Below are positions 27,939 to 38,358 of a DNA stretch of 41,830 bases, piece after piece. The translations under genes and the position numbers were made by a program. Origin of the DNA: Endomicrobium sp. (lineage in GTDB: Bacteria; Elusimicrobiota; Endomicrobiia; Endomicrobiales; Endomicrobiaceae); contig JAISBM010000028.1 in the NCBI GenBank assembly GCA_031266185.1, positions 1-41,830 of the forward strand. Direction: 5' to 3'. Position 1 is the stretch's first letter, and the number at the start of each line of letters is the position of its first letter. The notes beneath the pieces are model-generated. The model made no database searches. It saw nothing but the letters and a program-made list of their open reading frames with translations, and was not told the DNA's origin.

Positions 27939-29009
27939 TTATTCTCTTTTTTTTGAGTTTTTAGAACTCTTTTCTTTTGAAACAGAAGATTCTGATTTAT
28001 TTTCTTCATTTTTTTCTAAACCAAAAGCTTTTTCTCTTATTTTTGTTTCTATTTCTTCTGCTATGGCAGGATTTTCAACTAAAAATGCTTTTACATTTTC
28101 TCTACCTTGACCAAGTTTCTCACCTTTATAACTAAAAAAAGCACCTGCTTTTTCTATTATCCCATCATTTACACCCATATCTATTAAATAGCCAAACTTA
28201 TCTACACCCTGTCCAAAAATTATTTCAAATTCCGCTTGTTTAAATGGAGCTGCTACTTTATTTTTAACAACTTTTACTCTCACCCTGTTACCCAAAACTT
28301 CGTCACCTTTTTTGACAGACTCAATTCTTCTAATATCAAGTCTTACAGAAGAATAGAACTTCAAAGCAAGACCACCAGGAGTTGTCTCTGGACTTCCCCA
28401 CATAACTCCTATCTTCTGCCTTAATTGATTTATAAATACAATAGAGGTTTTTGATTTTGAAATATTAGAAGTAAGCTTCCTTAAAGCTTGACTCATAAGT
28501 CTAGCTTGAAGCCCTATAAAAGAATCTCCCATTTCACCTTCAATTTCAGCTTTAGGAACAAGTGCCGCTACTGAGTCTACAACTATTATATCAACAGCTC
28601 CAGAACGTATAAGTTTATCTGCAATTTCAAGACCTTGCTCACCCGAATCTGGTTGAGATATTAACAAATTTTCTATATCCACTCCTATCTTCTTTGCGTA
28701 TTCTGGGTCCATTGCATGCTCAGCGTCTATATATGCTGCTATTCCACCAAGCTTTTGAGTTTGCGCTACCATACATAAAGCAAGAGTAGTTTTACCAGAA
28801 GATTCTGGCCCATAAATTTCAATGATTCTCCCTCTAGGGATACCGCCAATACCTATAGCAATGTCTAGAGGAAGTGCGCCAGTAGATATAGAATCTACAT
28901 TTTCTTTTGCATGTTTTTCACCAAGCCTCATAATTGCTTCTTTGCCAAAATCTTTTTCAATTTGAGATAACGCTAAATCCAAAGCTTTAAGTTTTTCATC
29001 TTTTACCAT
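27939..29009 (-). CDS. recA: Recombinase RecA
   Basis: This ATP-dependent DNA strand-exchange protein of 356 aa acts in homologous recombination and SOS activation. Walker A is GPESSGKT (67-74). [21 protein letters not shown]-type sequence, the L2 region and [21 protein letters not shown] are all RecA hallmarks. The C-terminal tail is charged and Ser/Lys-rich rather than strongly acidic. GGAGGAAGT precedes the ATG at 29009. It lies among glycan genes, with GT9 three bases downstream, so it may share their transcript. A candidate promoter with an inverted repeat lies in the 102-bp gap upstream. Confidence 0.98.
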
Positions 29010-29084: not shown

Positions 29085-29114
29085 TTTATACTAATCATTT
29101 ATACAAATTGATTA
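29085..29114 (-). promoter_or_regulatory. Candidate recA promoter with operator-like inverted repeat
   Basis: On the minus strand a TAATCA/TGATTA inverted repeat (29114-29092, 11-bp centre) lies just before TATAAA (29090-29085), where the -35 would be. It overlaps the stop of the upstream dehydrogenase gene. The sequence fits no LexA box that I know with certainty. Confidence 0.35.
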
Positions 29115-30413
29115 TATTCTTACAATTTTACTTGACTTAACATTTTTAAAAACATTTCTTGTATCTACAATAACTTTAGCATCTTTTAAAACTTTTTTAT
29201 AATCCACATGTGAATGGTCTGTAACTACCACGACAGCATCAAATTTATTTAAATTGTTAAGATTATTTAATGAACTCAAAATTTTACCATACACACAATT
29301 TTTTACAACAGGCACATGTGTATCATAATAAAAAACGTTTGCCATTTTTTCAATCAATATATTTATAACATCTATTGCTGGTGACTCTCTACCATCAGAC
29401 ACGTCTTTTTTATAAGCTACACCCAAAATTAAAATCTTCGCATTTTTTAAAACTTTAGACCTTGCATTTAACGCATCTTGCAATTTTGAGACAACATAGC
29501 CTGGCATTTTAGCATTTAAATCTCCAGCCAAGTCTATAAACCTTGAATAAAAGTTTACTGTTTTAAGTTTCCAGGACAAATAGTGTGGATCTAAAGGTAT
29601 ACAATGCCCACCTATTCCAGGCCCAGGATAAAAAGGCATAAATCCAAACGGTTTTGTTGATGCTGCATCTATAATTTCCCAAACATTAAGATTCAACTTG
29701 TCACACATTAAAGCAACTTCATTAACCAAAGCAATATTTACTGCTCTAAAAGTGTTTTCTAAAAGTTTTACCATTTCTGCAGTTTGAGTTGACGAAACTT
29801 TATAAACTTCCGTAAAAGAAGAATACACTGCCAAAGCAAGTCCAGCACACTTTGCACACATACCACCAACAACTTTTGGTGTATTTTTTATATCAAACTT
29901 TTTATTTGATGGATCTATTCTTTCTGGACTAAAAGCTAAAAAGAAATCTTTTCCCACAACTAAACCTGTTTCTTCTAATATTGGAAGCACCAACTCTTCT
30001 GTAGTGCCAGGATAAGTTGTAGACTCTAATATAATAAGTTGGCCTTTTTTTAAAGTCTTTCTAACATTCTTTGCTGCCTCAAGTACACAAGAGACATCCG
30101 GATCTTTAGATTTCCTAAGAGGTGTTGGTACACAAATAATTAAAACATCCATATGTGAAAGGTTTTTAAAATTTGTGTCAGCAAAAATCTTTTTACTATC
30201 AACCAACTCTTTTAAATCTTTAGAACTCACATCACCAATATACGATTTTCCACTATTTATCATCTTAACTTTAGACTCGTCCACTTCAAAACCTGTAACA
30301 CTAAACCTCTGTTTTGCAAGCTGACAAGATAAAGGAAGACCCACATACCCTTGACCTATAACACCAATTTTTGCATTTTTAGAATTAATTTTTTCAAGCA
30401 AGCTTTTATACAT
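29112..30413 (-). CDS. UDP-N-acetylglucosamine/mannosamine 6-dehydrogenase (WbpA/WecC-like)
   Basis: This 433-aa nucleotide-sugar dehydrogenase oxidises C6 of a UDP-sugar to an acid in two NAD-dependent steps. The Rossmann start is IGVIGQGYVGLPL. SPERIDP follows, and the catalytic Cys is C271 in GPGIGGHCIPLDPHYLSWK, which resembles WbpA-type UDP-GlcNAc dehydrogenases more than UDP-glucose ones. The C-terminal ILGVAYKKDVSDGRESPA is conserved. TGAGGT precedes the ATG at 30413, and a good sigma-70 promoter lies about 30 bp upstream. It probably supplies a uronic-acid-type residue for the envelope glycan made by the following genes. Confidence 0.9.
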   Translation of the reverse strand: MYKSLLEKINSKNAKIGVIGQGYVGLPLSCQLAKQRFSVTGFEVDESKVKMINSGKSYIGDVSSKDLKELVDSKKIFADTNFKNLSHMDVLIICVPTPLRKSKDPDVSCVLEAAKNVRKTLKKGQLIILESTTYPGTTEELVLPILEETGLVVGKDFFLAFSPERIDPSNKKFDIKNTPKVVGGMCAKCAGLALAVYSSFTEVYKVSSTQTAEMVKLLENTFRAVNIALVNEVALMCDKLNLNVWEIIDAASTKPFGFMPFYPGPGIGGHCIPLDPHYLSWKLKTVNFYSRFIDLAGDLNAKMPGYVVSKLQDALNARSKVLKNAKILILGVAYKKDVSDGRESPAIDVINILIEKMANVFYYDTHVPVVKNCVYGKILSSLNNLNNLNKFDAVVVVTDHSHVDYKKVLKDAKVIVDTRNVFKNVKSSKIVRI

Positions 30414-30442
30414 ATAACCTCATTAAAAACATTTTGACTTTA

Positions 30443-30471
30443 ATTATATAATTTTTAATATATTTTGTCAT
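30443..30471 (-). promoter_or_regulatory. Promoter of the UDP-sugar dehydrogenase gene
   Basis: The minus strand reads ATGACA (30471-30466), a 17-bp spacer and TATAAT (30448-30443). The start would be near 30436, leaving a leader of about 23 nt with a TGAGGT ribosome site. It may drive the whole glycan operon. Confidence 0.75.
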
Positions 30472-30522
30472 TTTAATGTAACCGTGCTTATATCATATTT
30501 ATAAATTAAATTTTATAAAGTT

Positions 30523-30706
30523 GGTCTAGTTTAGTATCTTATTGGAGTTACCTCAAAGAGCGACTTATGAGCAACAAACTTTTAATATTTCAAATTAGCT
30601 CTGTCTGAAGCAAAGTTCATTTATGTCTTTCTTGTCTTTTCATTTTGCTAGTTTACTAATTTGTTTAAATGTTTATTTGCAATTGCCCTGGTAACGTAGA
30701 TAAGAT
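30523..30706. repeat. Intergenic repeat, copy 1
   Basis: This unit of about 184 bp starts ggtctagtttagtatctt and ends gtaacgtagataagat. It matches copy 2 along its length, with scattered substitutions and lacking a 16-bp insertion present in copy 2. The core is AGTTACCTCAAAGAGC followed by CTTATGAGCAA. Confidence 0.9.
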
Positions 30707-30711
30707 TCTAC

Positions 30712-30736
30712 ACTAGACTAGACTAGACTAGACTAG
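30712..30736. repeat. Microsatellite (ACTAG)5
   Basis: Five perfect tandem ACTAG pentamers sit between the two long repeats. The sequence just after, agaccaaactaactatttc, is an exact 19-nt inverted match to 38275-38293. Confidence 0.95.
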
Positions 30737-30762
30737 ACCAAACTAACTATTTCGCAGATATT

Positions 30763-30963
30763 GATCTAGTTTAGTATCTTATCGGAGTTACCTCAAAGAG
30801 CATCTTATGAGCAACTAAACATTTAATATTACAAATTAGCATTGTTTGAAGCAAAGTTCATTTATGTCTTTCTTGTCTTTTCATTTTGCTAGTTTGCTAA
30901 TTTGTTTAAATGTTTGTTGCGATTGCTCTCTGAGTGAGACACTCTAGTAACGTAGGTAAGATA
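30763..30963. repeat. Intergenic repeat, copy 2
   Basis: This unit of about 201 bp is in the same orientation as copy 1. A run of about 55 bp (gaagcaaagttcattt and on through the tttcattttgctagttt region) is nearly identical in the two copies. It ends 25 bp before the DUF2779 gene stop. Confidence 0.9.
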
Positions 30964-30987
30964 ATAAACTAATTATCTCATTATGTG

Positions 30988-32457
30988 TTAACTCAAACTA
31001 CATTTATTTTTAGAAATATTGATTAAAAACTGATGTATATAAATCATAGCAGCAGTATCTTTCGCACAATATTTCAATAAATTCATTTTTGTTTGCTCTA
31101 TCTGTTTTTCATCATACATTCCCATAGCCATAAAAGCAAAAGAAGCTGCAGCGTCACCACCATCACCTATTTCTAAATCTAAGTAAGTTTCTTTTGGTAC
31201 TAACACAGGTAAAACTCTTTTTATTGAACTTCGTCCATGAAAATTTACATTATAGTAATTTTTCTTTAAAATCAGCTCTAAATCAACTATTCGATCAGCT
31301 ATTTTGCTTAAACTGTCACGTAAATCTTCAAACAAGCTGGCGAGCTTTAATATAGATATGCGTTCTGAGTTTGAATAAGTTATAATACTACCATCTTGTT
31401 TTAAACACTTAATAAGTTGTATTGCAAGTTCTCTACGACAATCTTTTGTATAGTCTGCAATATATTCGTAATGATTTAATACATTTCCTACATTGTCAGT
31501 TTCATCCAAAGAAAACTGTGTTAATACTTGAGTGTGCGGAGCAATGTCAGGATATAAAGGCATTATCGTAGTGACAGACTCAAAATCAAGATAATAATAG
31601 GATTGTTTTATATTGTTAAGCTCACTAAGCAAAGTATCAGAAATGTAAGTTGTGTTTGTTAAAACGCTGTCCTTAACTATTTTTTGCATCTGAGTGAGTT
31701 CAAAATCATCTGGAACTTTATCAATGGTGTATACTTTAAGTGCTATTAACTCTTCCATAGCAGGAATAGATAGTCTTGGCAAGTCAAAAATATGATTGTT
31801 AACATTTTTAGCCATACATATATCAAACACAGGACAATTCTTACAACTTCTCTTTAAGTATGGTTCAGGCATGTTTTCAGAGCTTATCTCTTTTATCACT
31901 TGTTCTGAAACAGAAAGGAAATCTAAAAATGTAAGTTCTACTTTTTCAGTAGAATCTATTTCTTTAAAAAGACTATCTATTTGCATACCTAAACGATAAC
32001 TATTCGACAAATATAACACACTGTACTTAGACACATTTATATTTGCTTTTGATAAAACCATCGCAGTAAAAGCTACATCGTTTGTATATTTTACCTTATA
32101 CTTGCTACCAGACTTTACTTCAAACAAGTGCCATGAATTTTTGTCAATTCTTTTTAATATATCTGCTTTTACATAATATCCGTCTTGAACAAAGCAAGCA
32201 TTACAAACTGTATCTATATTAGAGTCTGCAACCAACTTTTTTGTCTCTAAAAACACATCTTCATCTCCAACTTTTCTTTGTACAACAACAGCATTATTAA
32301 AAAGCTGAAATGCTTTTTGACGAATAATTTTGCCTTCATATACAAGGAAATCATTATTTAAACCTGTAAGTTTTGGGGTTTTATTTCTTTTGATAAGCCA
32401 AGCAAGAGTAGGACAACTTAAATAATTTATAAAAACCGTTTTATTTATATATTCCAT
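30988..32457 (-). CDS. DUF2779 protein: RecB/Cas4-like nuclease domain plus RNase-H-like exonuclease domain
   Basis: This 489-aa cytoplasmic protein has two nuclease-like halves. N-terminal: D99, E113 and K115 (HLFEVKSG) fit a PD-(D/E)XK active site, while C15 with C205, C208 and C214 (CKNCPVFDIC) matches the Cas4/AddB 4Fe-4S arrangement. C-terminal (from about 285): YYYLDFESV (D291, E293), D392 and D467 (CAKDTAA) match a DEDD exonuclease of the DnaQ/RNase-H superfamily, as in DUF2779 proteins. Its biological role is not established. It is the third gene of an operon after PIN-PhoH and the PHP phosphatase (8-bp gap). There is no cas1 or CRISPR array here. Confidence 0.78.
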   Translation of the reverse strand: MEYINKTVFINYLSCPTLAWLIKRNKTPKLTGLNNDFLVYEGKIIRQKAFQLFNNAVVVQRKVGDEDVFLETKKLVADSNIDTVCNACFVQDGYYVKADILKRIDKNSWHLFEVKSGSKYKVKYTNDVAFTAMVLSKANINVSKYSVLYLSNSYRLGMQIDSLFKEIDSTEKVELTFLDFLSVSEQVIKEISSENMPEPYLKRSCKNCPVFDICMAKNVNNHIFDLPRLSIPAMEELIALKVYTIDKVPDDFELTQMQKIVKDSVLTNTTYISDTLLSELNNIKQSYYYLDFESVTTIMPLYPDIAPHTQVLTQFSLDETDNVGNVLNHYEYIADYTKDCRRELAIQLIKCLKQDGSIITYSNSERISILKLASLFEDLRDSLSKIADRIVDLELILKKNYYNVNFHGRSSIKRVLPVLVPKETYLDLEIGDGGDAAASFAFMAMGMYDEKQIEQTKMNLLKYCAKDTAAMIYIHQFLINISKNKCSLS

Positions 32458-38274: not shown

Positions 38275-38358
38275 GAAATAGTTAGTTTGGTCTGCTTAGA
38301 ACCTGACCAGAGTTACCTCAAAGAGCATCTTATGAGCAATAAACATTTAATCCAGGTT
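38275..38358. repeat. Third, shorter copy of the intergenic repeat
   Basis: Bases 38310-38350 match copy 2 over about 42 nt with few differences (AGTTACCTCAAAGAGC, ATCTTATGAGCAA, TAAACATTTAAT). The left edge gaaatagttagtttggtct (38275-38293) is the exact inverse of 30735-30753 in the first block. The long right part of copies 1 and 2 is missing. AACCTG (38300) and CAGGTT (38353) form inverted ends around the core. Confidence 0.85.

Follow-up and report, generated by a model that had tools for sequence, protein, structure and literature searches.

The interval between 30414 and 30987 of the window (the whole 41,830-nt stretch analyzed here) raises two questions: what kind of repeat its two similar sequences represent, and how the copies of that repeat relate to one another across sites and species. 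A sequence-only reading had described two diverged direct copies of about 184 and 201 bp, 56 bp apart, and had offered either a MITE-like non-autonomous element or a repeated structured RNA. The stretch 30521-30977 does hold a tandem pair of copies, in the same orientation, of a non-coding, quasi-palindromic element of about 200 bp that is dispersed in the genome; the two are 89.5% identical over 200 aligned bases, and ungapped blocks of 102 and 58 nt reach 93% and 91%, respectively. The sizes and the spacing change with redrawn boundaries. Copy 1 (30521..30741, forward strand), a short form, is 221 bp long, its right end being extended by a CTAGA microsatellite of 8.6 units (30708-30749); copy 2 (30761..30977, forward strand) is 217 bp; and once the CTAGA tail is assigned to copy 1 the tandem-junction spacer is 19 bp (30742..30760). 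The 16-bp insertion said to distinguish the copies lies in copy 2, otherwise a short form, at 30929..30944 (forward strand), and is a presence/absence variant that recurs in other copies. The left terminal inverted repeat of copy 1, TTGGTCTAGTTTAG (30521..30534, forward strand), is an exact match in the scan of the own genome for element ends and is part of an inverted pair.

The repeat pair is flanked by a UDP-glucose/GDP-mannose dehydrogenase gene (29112-30413, reverse strand) and a gene for a DUF2779/Cas4-like protein of 489 aa (30988-32457, reverse strand); the window also holds a RecA gene (27939-29009). No open reading frame of 100 aa or more is listed in 30414-30987, which bears out the claim that no transposase frame is present. 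A third, partial copy lies downstream of glyS (38287..38351, forward strand), and the matching region has two elements in Candidatus Endomicrobiellum incisitermitis (L045) and one degenerate element in E. roisinitermitis (L047). The last 61 bases of the contig (41770-41830) are all G, probably a sequencing or assembly artefact.

The family consensus of about 200 bp has the ends TTGRTCTAGTTTAG and matches its own reverse complement both at the ends and again near CAAATTAGC, so that the inverted ends are longer than had been claimed; one copy folds along its full length as a single hairpin (DNA −38.2 kcal/mol, RNA −66.3 kcal/mol, z −7.6 for both). With up to two mismatches allowed, the end motif has 68 matches in the own genome versus 14 for the reversed control. 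Some copy sets were selected with this motif and are not independent evidence for terminal inverted repeats. The strength of the RNA fold is what speaks for a repeated structured RNA gene. Against it, no Rfam match falls on the repeat at gathering score (all five of the window's matches are tRNAs), the arrays have no constant placing relative to genes, and in an RNAalifold consensus of 32 chosen copies the covariation term is 0.15 kcal/mol, with double changes in 3 of 52 pairs, so that the strong hairpin comes with few compensatory changes. We give the RNA reading practically no chance.

Copies are found well beyond the window, and they share their ends, contrary to both conditions under which the sequence-only reading was to fall. 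The own genome, a draft assembly of 828 kb in 28 contigs and 52% complete, has at least 46 blastn matches to the 456-bp query (best 40 of 61 candidates scored), the best non-self match having an E-value of 6.2e-134, far above chance. The element is thus short, lacks a transposase frame, has terminal inverted repeats and is present in multiple dispersed copies, as expected of a MITE; the MITE-like label stands in these respects. The host glyS protein is 94-96% identical to those of E. incisitermitis, E. cryptotermitis and E. roisinitermitis and 80% identical to that of E. cubanum, which places the host as an Endomicrobiellum species (Elusimicrobiota). According to passages of PMC11257099, this group includes endosymbionts of termite gut flagellates; those passages do not describe the repeats, and a limited literature search found nothing on the family.

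A search of 99 genomes, in which at most eight candidates were scored per genome and counts are accordingly low, gave matches in seven, the own genome included. Four of these are strong: the own genome, G029, G039 and G016, the last three of which we infer to be E. incisitermitis, E. cryptotermitis and E. roisinitermitis, respectively. The other 95 gave no match, apart from short traces over 28 to 55 bp in three (G004, G058 and G070). A second query gave at least 76, 50 and 47 matches in G029, G016 and G039, with 40 candidates scored in each. Neither phages nor plasmids gave a match to one copy, and viral contigs gave none to a 37-base pattern. One hundred stretches around copies were taken, leaving aside the lowest-ranked listed fragments and unlisted ones; together with 30 own-genome loci these gave 203 profile hits in 130 loci, and 199 hits in 128 loci and 138 arrays from four genomes after two own loci repeating others were dropped.

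The copies come in two forms and in arrays. The long form holds a block of about 155 bp, with the same start junction in 22 copies picked for a gap of 60-260 bp between their halves. This block replaces short-form bases, so that plain deletion would not convert the long form to the short. Its consensus is itself a hairpin (−34.4 kcal/mol). The block is a second hairpin repeat of about 155 bp with the ends GGGGTCTGTCTAAAAACC, nested in the long form (e.g. L182:2628-2790); a search with it found copies in each of the five genomes covered, E. cubanum (G102, which has the same coordinates as G019) accounting for 43 of the matches, although this genome has no match to the first family. A further sequence, module B, is found next to the element, on either side and at most 16 bases from its end, in 22 of 22 hits (21 when a repeated locus is discounted); all of these loci had been selected for the element, so that B elsewhere would be missed. 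Arrays reach four units, and mixed orientation occurs in 2 of 47 multi-hit arrays. The junction type of the window pair is common to 5 of the 10 neighboring full-copy pairs, this pair included. Identity between neighboring copies is 0.87-0.94, with a mean of 0.914.

No ORF of 90 aa or more extends more than 30 bp into any of the 138 arrays. This says little about avoidance of genes, because an insertion would itself break the frame, and it leaves room for short remnants of broken genes. The median distances from an array to the nearest ORF end are 116 and 110 bp. Where both gene neighbors are known (n = 101), 71 arrays lie between tandem, 16 between convergent and 14 between divergent genes, which resembles the background of all neighboring ORF pairs in the same stretches (123 tandem, 30 convergent and 25 divergent); there is neither a promoter-side bias nor a constant placing relative to genes.

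Pairing arrays between species by their flanks yielded 17 sites matched on both sides, which make up 35 species pairs; the first-listed flank matches are 88-98% identical. What stands at these shared sites varies. Orientation differs at 7 of the 17 sites (12 of the 35 species pairs), although some flips are based on partial copies (L220, L191 and L134) and two flipped sites (L012/L153 and L134/L199) lie in clusters whose flanks match several arrays per genome, making orthology less certain; without these two, 5 of 15 sites are flipped. Short and long form differ at 10 of 16 sites (12 of the 22 pairs in which the form of both partners is known), and copy number differs in 10 of the 35 species pairs. 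Since the arrays are tandem, differential loss may explain part of the differences in form.

The window site itself also has counterparts in the sister species. It holds a single copy with degenerate ends in E. incisitermitis, the degenerate right end being shared with copy 2, and a copy with foreign sequence in its left part in both E. roisinitermitis and E. cryptotermitis; a single orientation is seen in all three genomes paired there. About 45 bp of AT-rich left flank are nearly identical between the window site (L001) and the L006 site, and the E. roisinitermitis counterpart of L006 has them too, which would fit an exchange tract, or a repeat of older date, extending into the flank.

The identity of the copies does not follow the sites. 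In only 1 of 35 copy comparisons (L014/L129) is the site partner the best match in the other genome; these comparisons include one- and two-flank pairs and, at some sites, several copies, and identities at matched sites range from 0.815 to 0.955. Nine single-copy pairs of the same orientation have an inner identity of 0.88, compared with 0.871 for random pairs. Across all copy pairs the mean is 0.878 between genomes and 0.889 within genomes, and because the latter is hardly higher, little homogenization has taken place. The rim behaves differently. At 42 orthologous ends the mismatch over the outer 9 bases is 0.177 versus 0.280 for random ends, and over the next 14 bases 0.156 versus 0.175. 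At L009 the own genome, E. roisinitermitis and E. incisitermitis agree in all of the 23 right-hand bases and match closely in the flank, and the inside is flipped in the two latter species relative to the own genome; random end pairs are identical in 0.4% of 10,800 cases. The rim thus tends to follow the site and the inside does not.

Flips at seven flank-matched sites in an element that folds as a full-length hairpin could suggest inversion in place only, by recombination between the inverted ends or by a template switch in the hairpin, as in an inverton or a Correia element and possibly serving as a phase switch. Inversion of Correia elements in Neisseria (passages of PMC10969869) and of spacers by template switching in yeast (passages of PMC8604942) offers precedents. 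An inverted segment should, however, still be the same segment, and the flipped orthologs are different copies: after re-orientation, L009 and L130 are 0.859 identical, rank 17 of 20. The short and long forms that differ at 10 of 16 sites are beyond the reach of inversion, which is insufficient alone, and the neighbor classes, with their lack of a promoter-side bias, do not point to a switch. We judge inversion alone to be improbable. A different way to obtain unlike copies at one site without any exchange between sites would be ancestral tandem arrays of diverse copies, from which different survivors remained in each species. Arrays of up to four units do exist, and their neighboring copies are diverse, with a mean identity little above that within genomes. 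Few flips would be expected, however, from arrays that are mixed in orientation in only 2 of 47 cases, and the linkage pattern across sites, described next, would go unexplained; we consider such sorting very improbable.

Linkage was examined among 76 full-length short copies (18 from the own genome, 20 from G016, 28 from G029 and 10 from G039), partial and long hits being excluded. There are 28 positions with a minor allele of at least 12%, and at 21 of these both main alleles are present in all four genomes. The mean r2 is 0.037 and all four combinations occur in 97% of site pairs, which puts the short copies close to linkage equilibrium. In 40 simulations of Kingman coalescents of similar diversity, run with no recombination, r2 was 0.458 (0.231-0.917) and the four-gamete fraction 0.07 (at most 0.20). 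Forty star-like simulations gave 0.35 (0.064-0.779) and 0.52 (up to 1.00), with only about 7 intermediate-frequency positions versus the 28 observed. Grouped by distance, site pairs 1-5 bp apart have an r2 of 0.157 (0 of 5000 permutations of site order) and those 6-19 bp apart one of 0.058 (87 of 5000); at 20-59 bp there is no increase (4431 of 5000). Adjacent variants may include multi-base changes, so the value at 1-5 bp is by itself no proof of recombination; the case for recombination rests on the whole linkage pattern together with the long-form block. The 22 long-form blocks have an r2 of 0.088 and a four-gamete fraction of 0.69, and short-copy subsamples of 22 give 0.084 and 0.83.

Shared alleles of this kind might also arise if the palindromes were hypermutable and orthologous copies had diverged fast at a few two-state positions, for which the 21 positions variable in all four genomes could be cited. 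Such mutation could not transfer a 155-bp block or a 16-bp insertion from site to site and is already contradicted by the block, nor does it sit well with an r2 that varies with distance. We find it scarcely plausible.

We therefore read the shared sites, the flips, the differences in form, the loss of identity between orthologous copies and the near linkage equilibrium as the record of an old, MITE-like palindromic family whose copies now exchange content in both orientations, chiefly through ectopic recombination or gene conversion, and we put the probability of this reading at roughly 0.57. The family would have been seeded at many places before the four sister Endomicrobiellum species split, as the shared sites suggest, and its positions would have been mostly static since, while the contents were exchanged among copies. 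Each copy is a near-palindrome, and a donor can therefore pair with it in either orientation; an exchange can then flip the inside, with the outermost bases staying with the site. The same exchange would carry the long-form block and the 16-bp insertion from site to site and would dissolve the linkage between variants. The event itself would be RecA-type conversion or replication template switching. In hairpins, template switching can homogenize arms and invert spacers (passages of PMC8604942); here it may add flips, but alone it cannot import the sequence or the block of another copy.

Several observations count against this reading. G016 and G029 have MutS, which would be expected to impede exchange among copies of about 88% identity; the window site has no flip in the genomes compared; and linkage is only modestly raised beyond 5 bp and not at all at 20-59 bp. 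The less certain orthology of two flipped sites, the flips seen on partial copies, the scant homogenization within genomes and the scope that tandem arrays give to differential loss weigh on the same side, as do the star-like simulations, with r2 values down to 0.064 and four-gamete fractions up to 1.00, though at about 7 positions. The presence of MutS in these two genomes also speaks against loss of mismatch repair as a permissive factor, which was rejected; MutS has no hit in the 52% complete own genome, and the search left G039 out. Breakage by SbcCD as the start of conversion was likewise rejected: SbcD (TIGR00619) is over the cut-off in none of five genomes (one weak match, 19.1 bits) and in none of 59 genomes of the phylum, the own genome included and G039, which the five had covered, left out (three weak matches, 18.5-22.5 bits), in a search whose control matched in 13 of 14 genomes, 8 of them over the cut-off, so that a diverged SbcD would escape. 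Hairpins may therefore be tolerated in these genomes, which is not special to the carriers.

All of the sequences are draft assemblies, viewed without reads, from four close relatives of which one is half complete, and wrong joins at single sites are possible. The titles of the sister contigs carry "k119", which we take to be a MEGAHIT k-mer. Copies about 12% different rarely have 119 bases in common, and by this reasoning graph errors should not make mosaics at a 10-bp scale.

The first spread was presumably by transposition, with a transposase that is not seen in these data. The DDE_3 (IS630-type) domain is found in none of the five genomes, in a search whose control matched in 3 of 14. IS630-type elements have TA or CTAG targets, and the CTAG in the element ends, which could be either a duplicated target or a part of the inverted repeat, prompted this candidate origin; it was rejected on the lack of DDE_3 and because palindromic empty targets are not clearly above the control (own genome 17 versus 12; sisters 25 versus 24, 33 versus 23 and 23 versus 23), and it survives only as part of the self-targeting alternative below. 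None of seven loci viewed among the empty targets listed is an emptied copy of a known site. At the sites examined there was no clean empty site, and target-site duplications could not be read for that reason; none was found. No transposase domain is present in eight frames from four places where element ends are unpaired or far apart. Six of these, beside the unpaired ends at L233, L234 and L235, are MnmE, DUF4143/AAA_14, two Fic proteins, a Na/H exchanger and a sigma-70 factor; at L236:3990-5065 (G000:C23) inward ends 1.07 kb apart enclose adjacent frames of 71 and 79 aa with no Pfam match, and none of these places holds an autonomous copy. The two Fic/DOC-family genes of L234 (917-1789 and 2402-3229; G000:C21) have a partial element copy between them.

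Transposition might also be ongoing and self-targeting, with new copies inserting in or beside existing ones at the CTAG of their ends, in either orientation, so that arrays form, old copies are lost by recombination, and the sites stay while their contents turn over. The tandem arrays with their common junction type, the excess of TTGRTCTAGTTTAG matches over the reversed control in the own genome, and the occurrence of module B beside either element end would all fit. Insertion in either orientation agrees poorly, however, with so few arrays of mixed orientation, no DDE_3 domain was found in five genomes and no transposase domain in the six frames beside unpaired ends, the empty targets give no clear signal, and the mosaicism within copies requires recombination anyway. 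We hold this to be unlikely, with a chance that is still appreciable. Returning to exchange among static copies, a stronger version may tentatively be put forward as a possibility we would not bet on: about 100 dispersed palindromes of 200 bp at inherited addresses would form a freely recombining population, in which copies trade their sequence, orientation and inserts like cassettes, perhaps through a dedicated pathway that works on the inverted ends, and in which variants are near linkage equilibrium within single genomes.

Repeats in bacteria are usually taken either to move, like transposons, or to drift where they stand. In this family the position of a copy and its content seem to follow separate lines of inheritance, and this is measurable because four close species have sites in common. 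The family provides a natural assay for the frequency of recombination between short, diverged repeats in a symbiont, and it cautions against the use of such repeats as strain or species markers. A limited literature search found no precedent for address and content being inherited separately in combination with near linkage equilibrium.

The closest known systems each share part of this behavior. Like MITEs, the elements are short and non-coding, have inverted ends and no internal transposase, and occur in dozens of dispersed copies; unlike MITEs, the inverted repeat spans the whole element, content differs at shared sites, and neither a target duplication nor an autonomous partner was found. 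Invertons are intergenic segments of about 200 bp between inverted repeats, found in both orientations, and the family resembles invertible promoters in all of these points, but a flipped site here holds a different copy, many sites are involved, and there is no promoter-side bias. REP/BIME sequences and REPINs are also palindromic repeats in mosaic clusters of modules, and gene conversion has been proposed for REPs, judging by the title of a 1988 review cited in PMC3116915; REPs are, however, 20-40 bp long (passages of PMC3733652), whereas the unit here is about 200 bp and falls outside that range. The Correia repeat enclosed elements of Neisseria, likened here by description and not by sequence comparison, are small and inverted-ended and are reported to invert (passages of PMC10969869), but flips in the present family come with a different copy and often with a different form. 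MITEs, palindromic mosaics and Correia inversion are thus already known, and the advance lies not in the element itself but in the exchange of content and the near linkage equilibrium among its copies.
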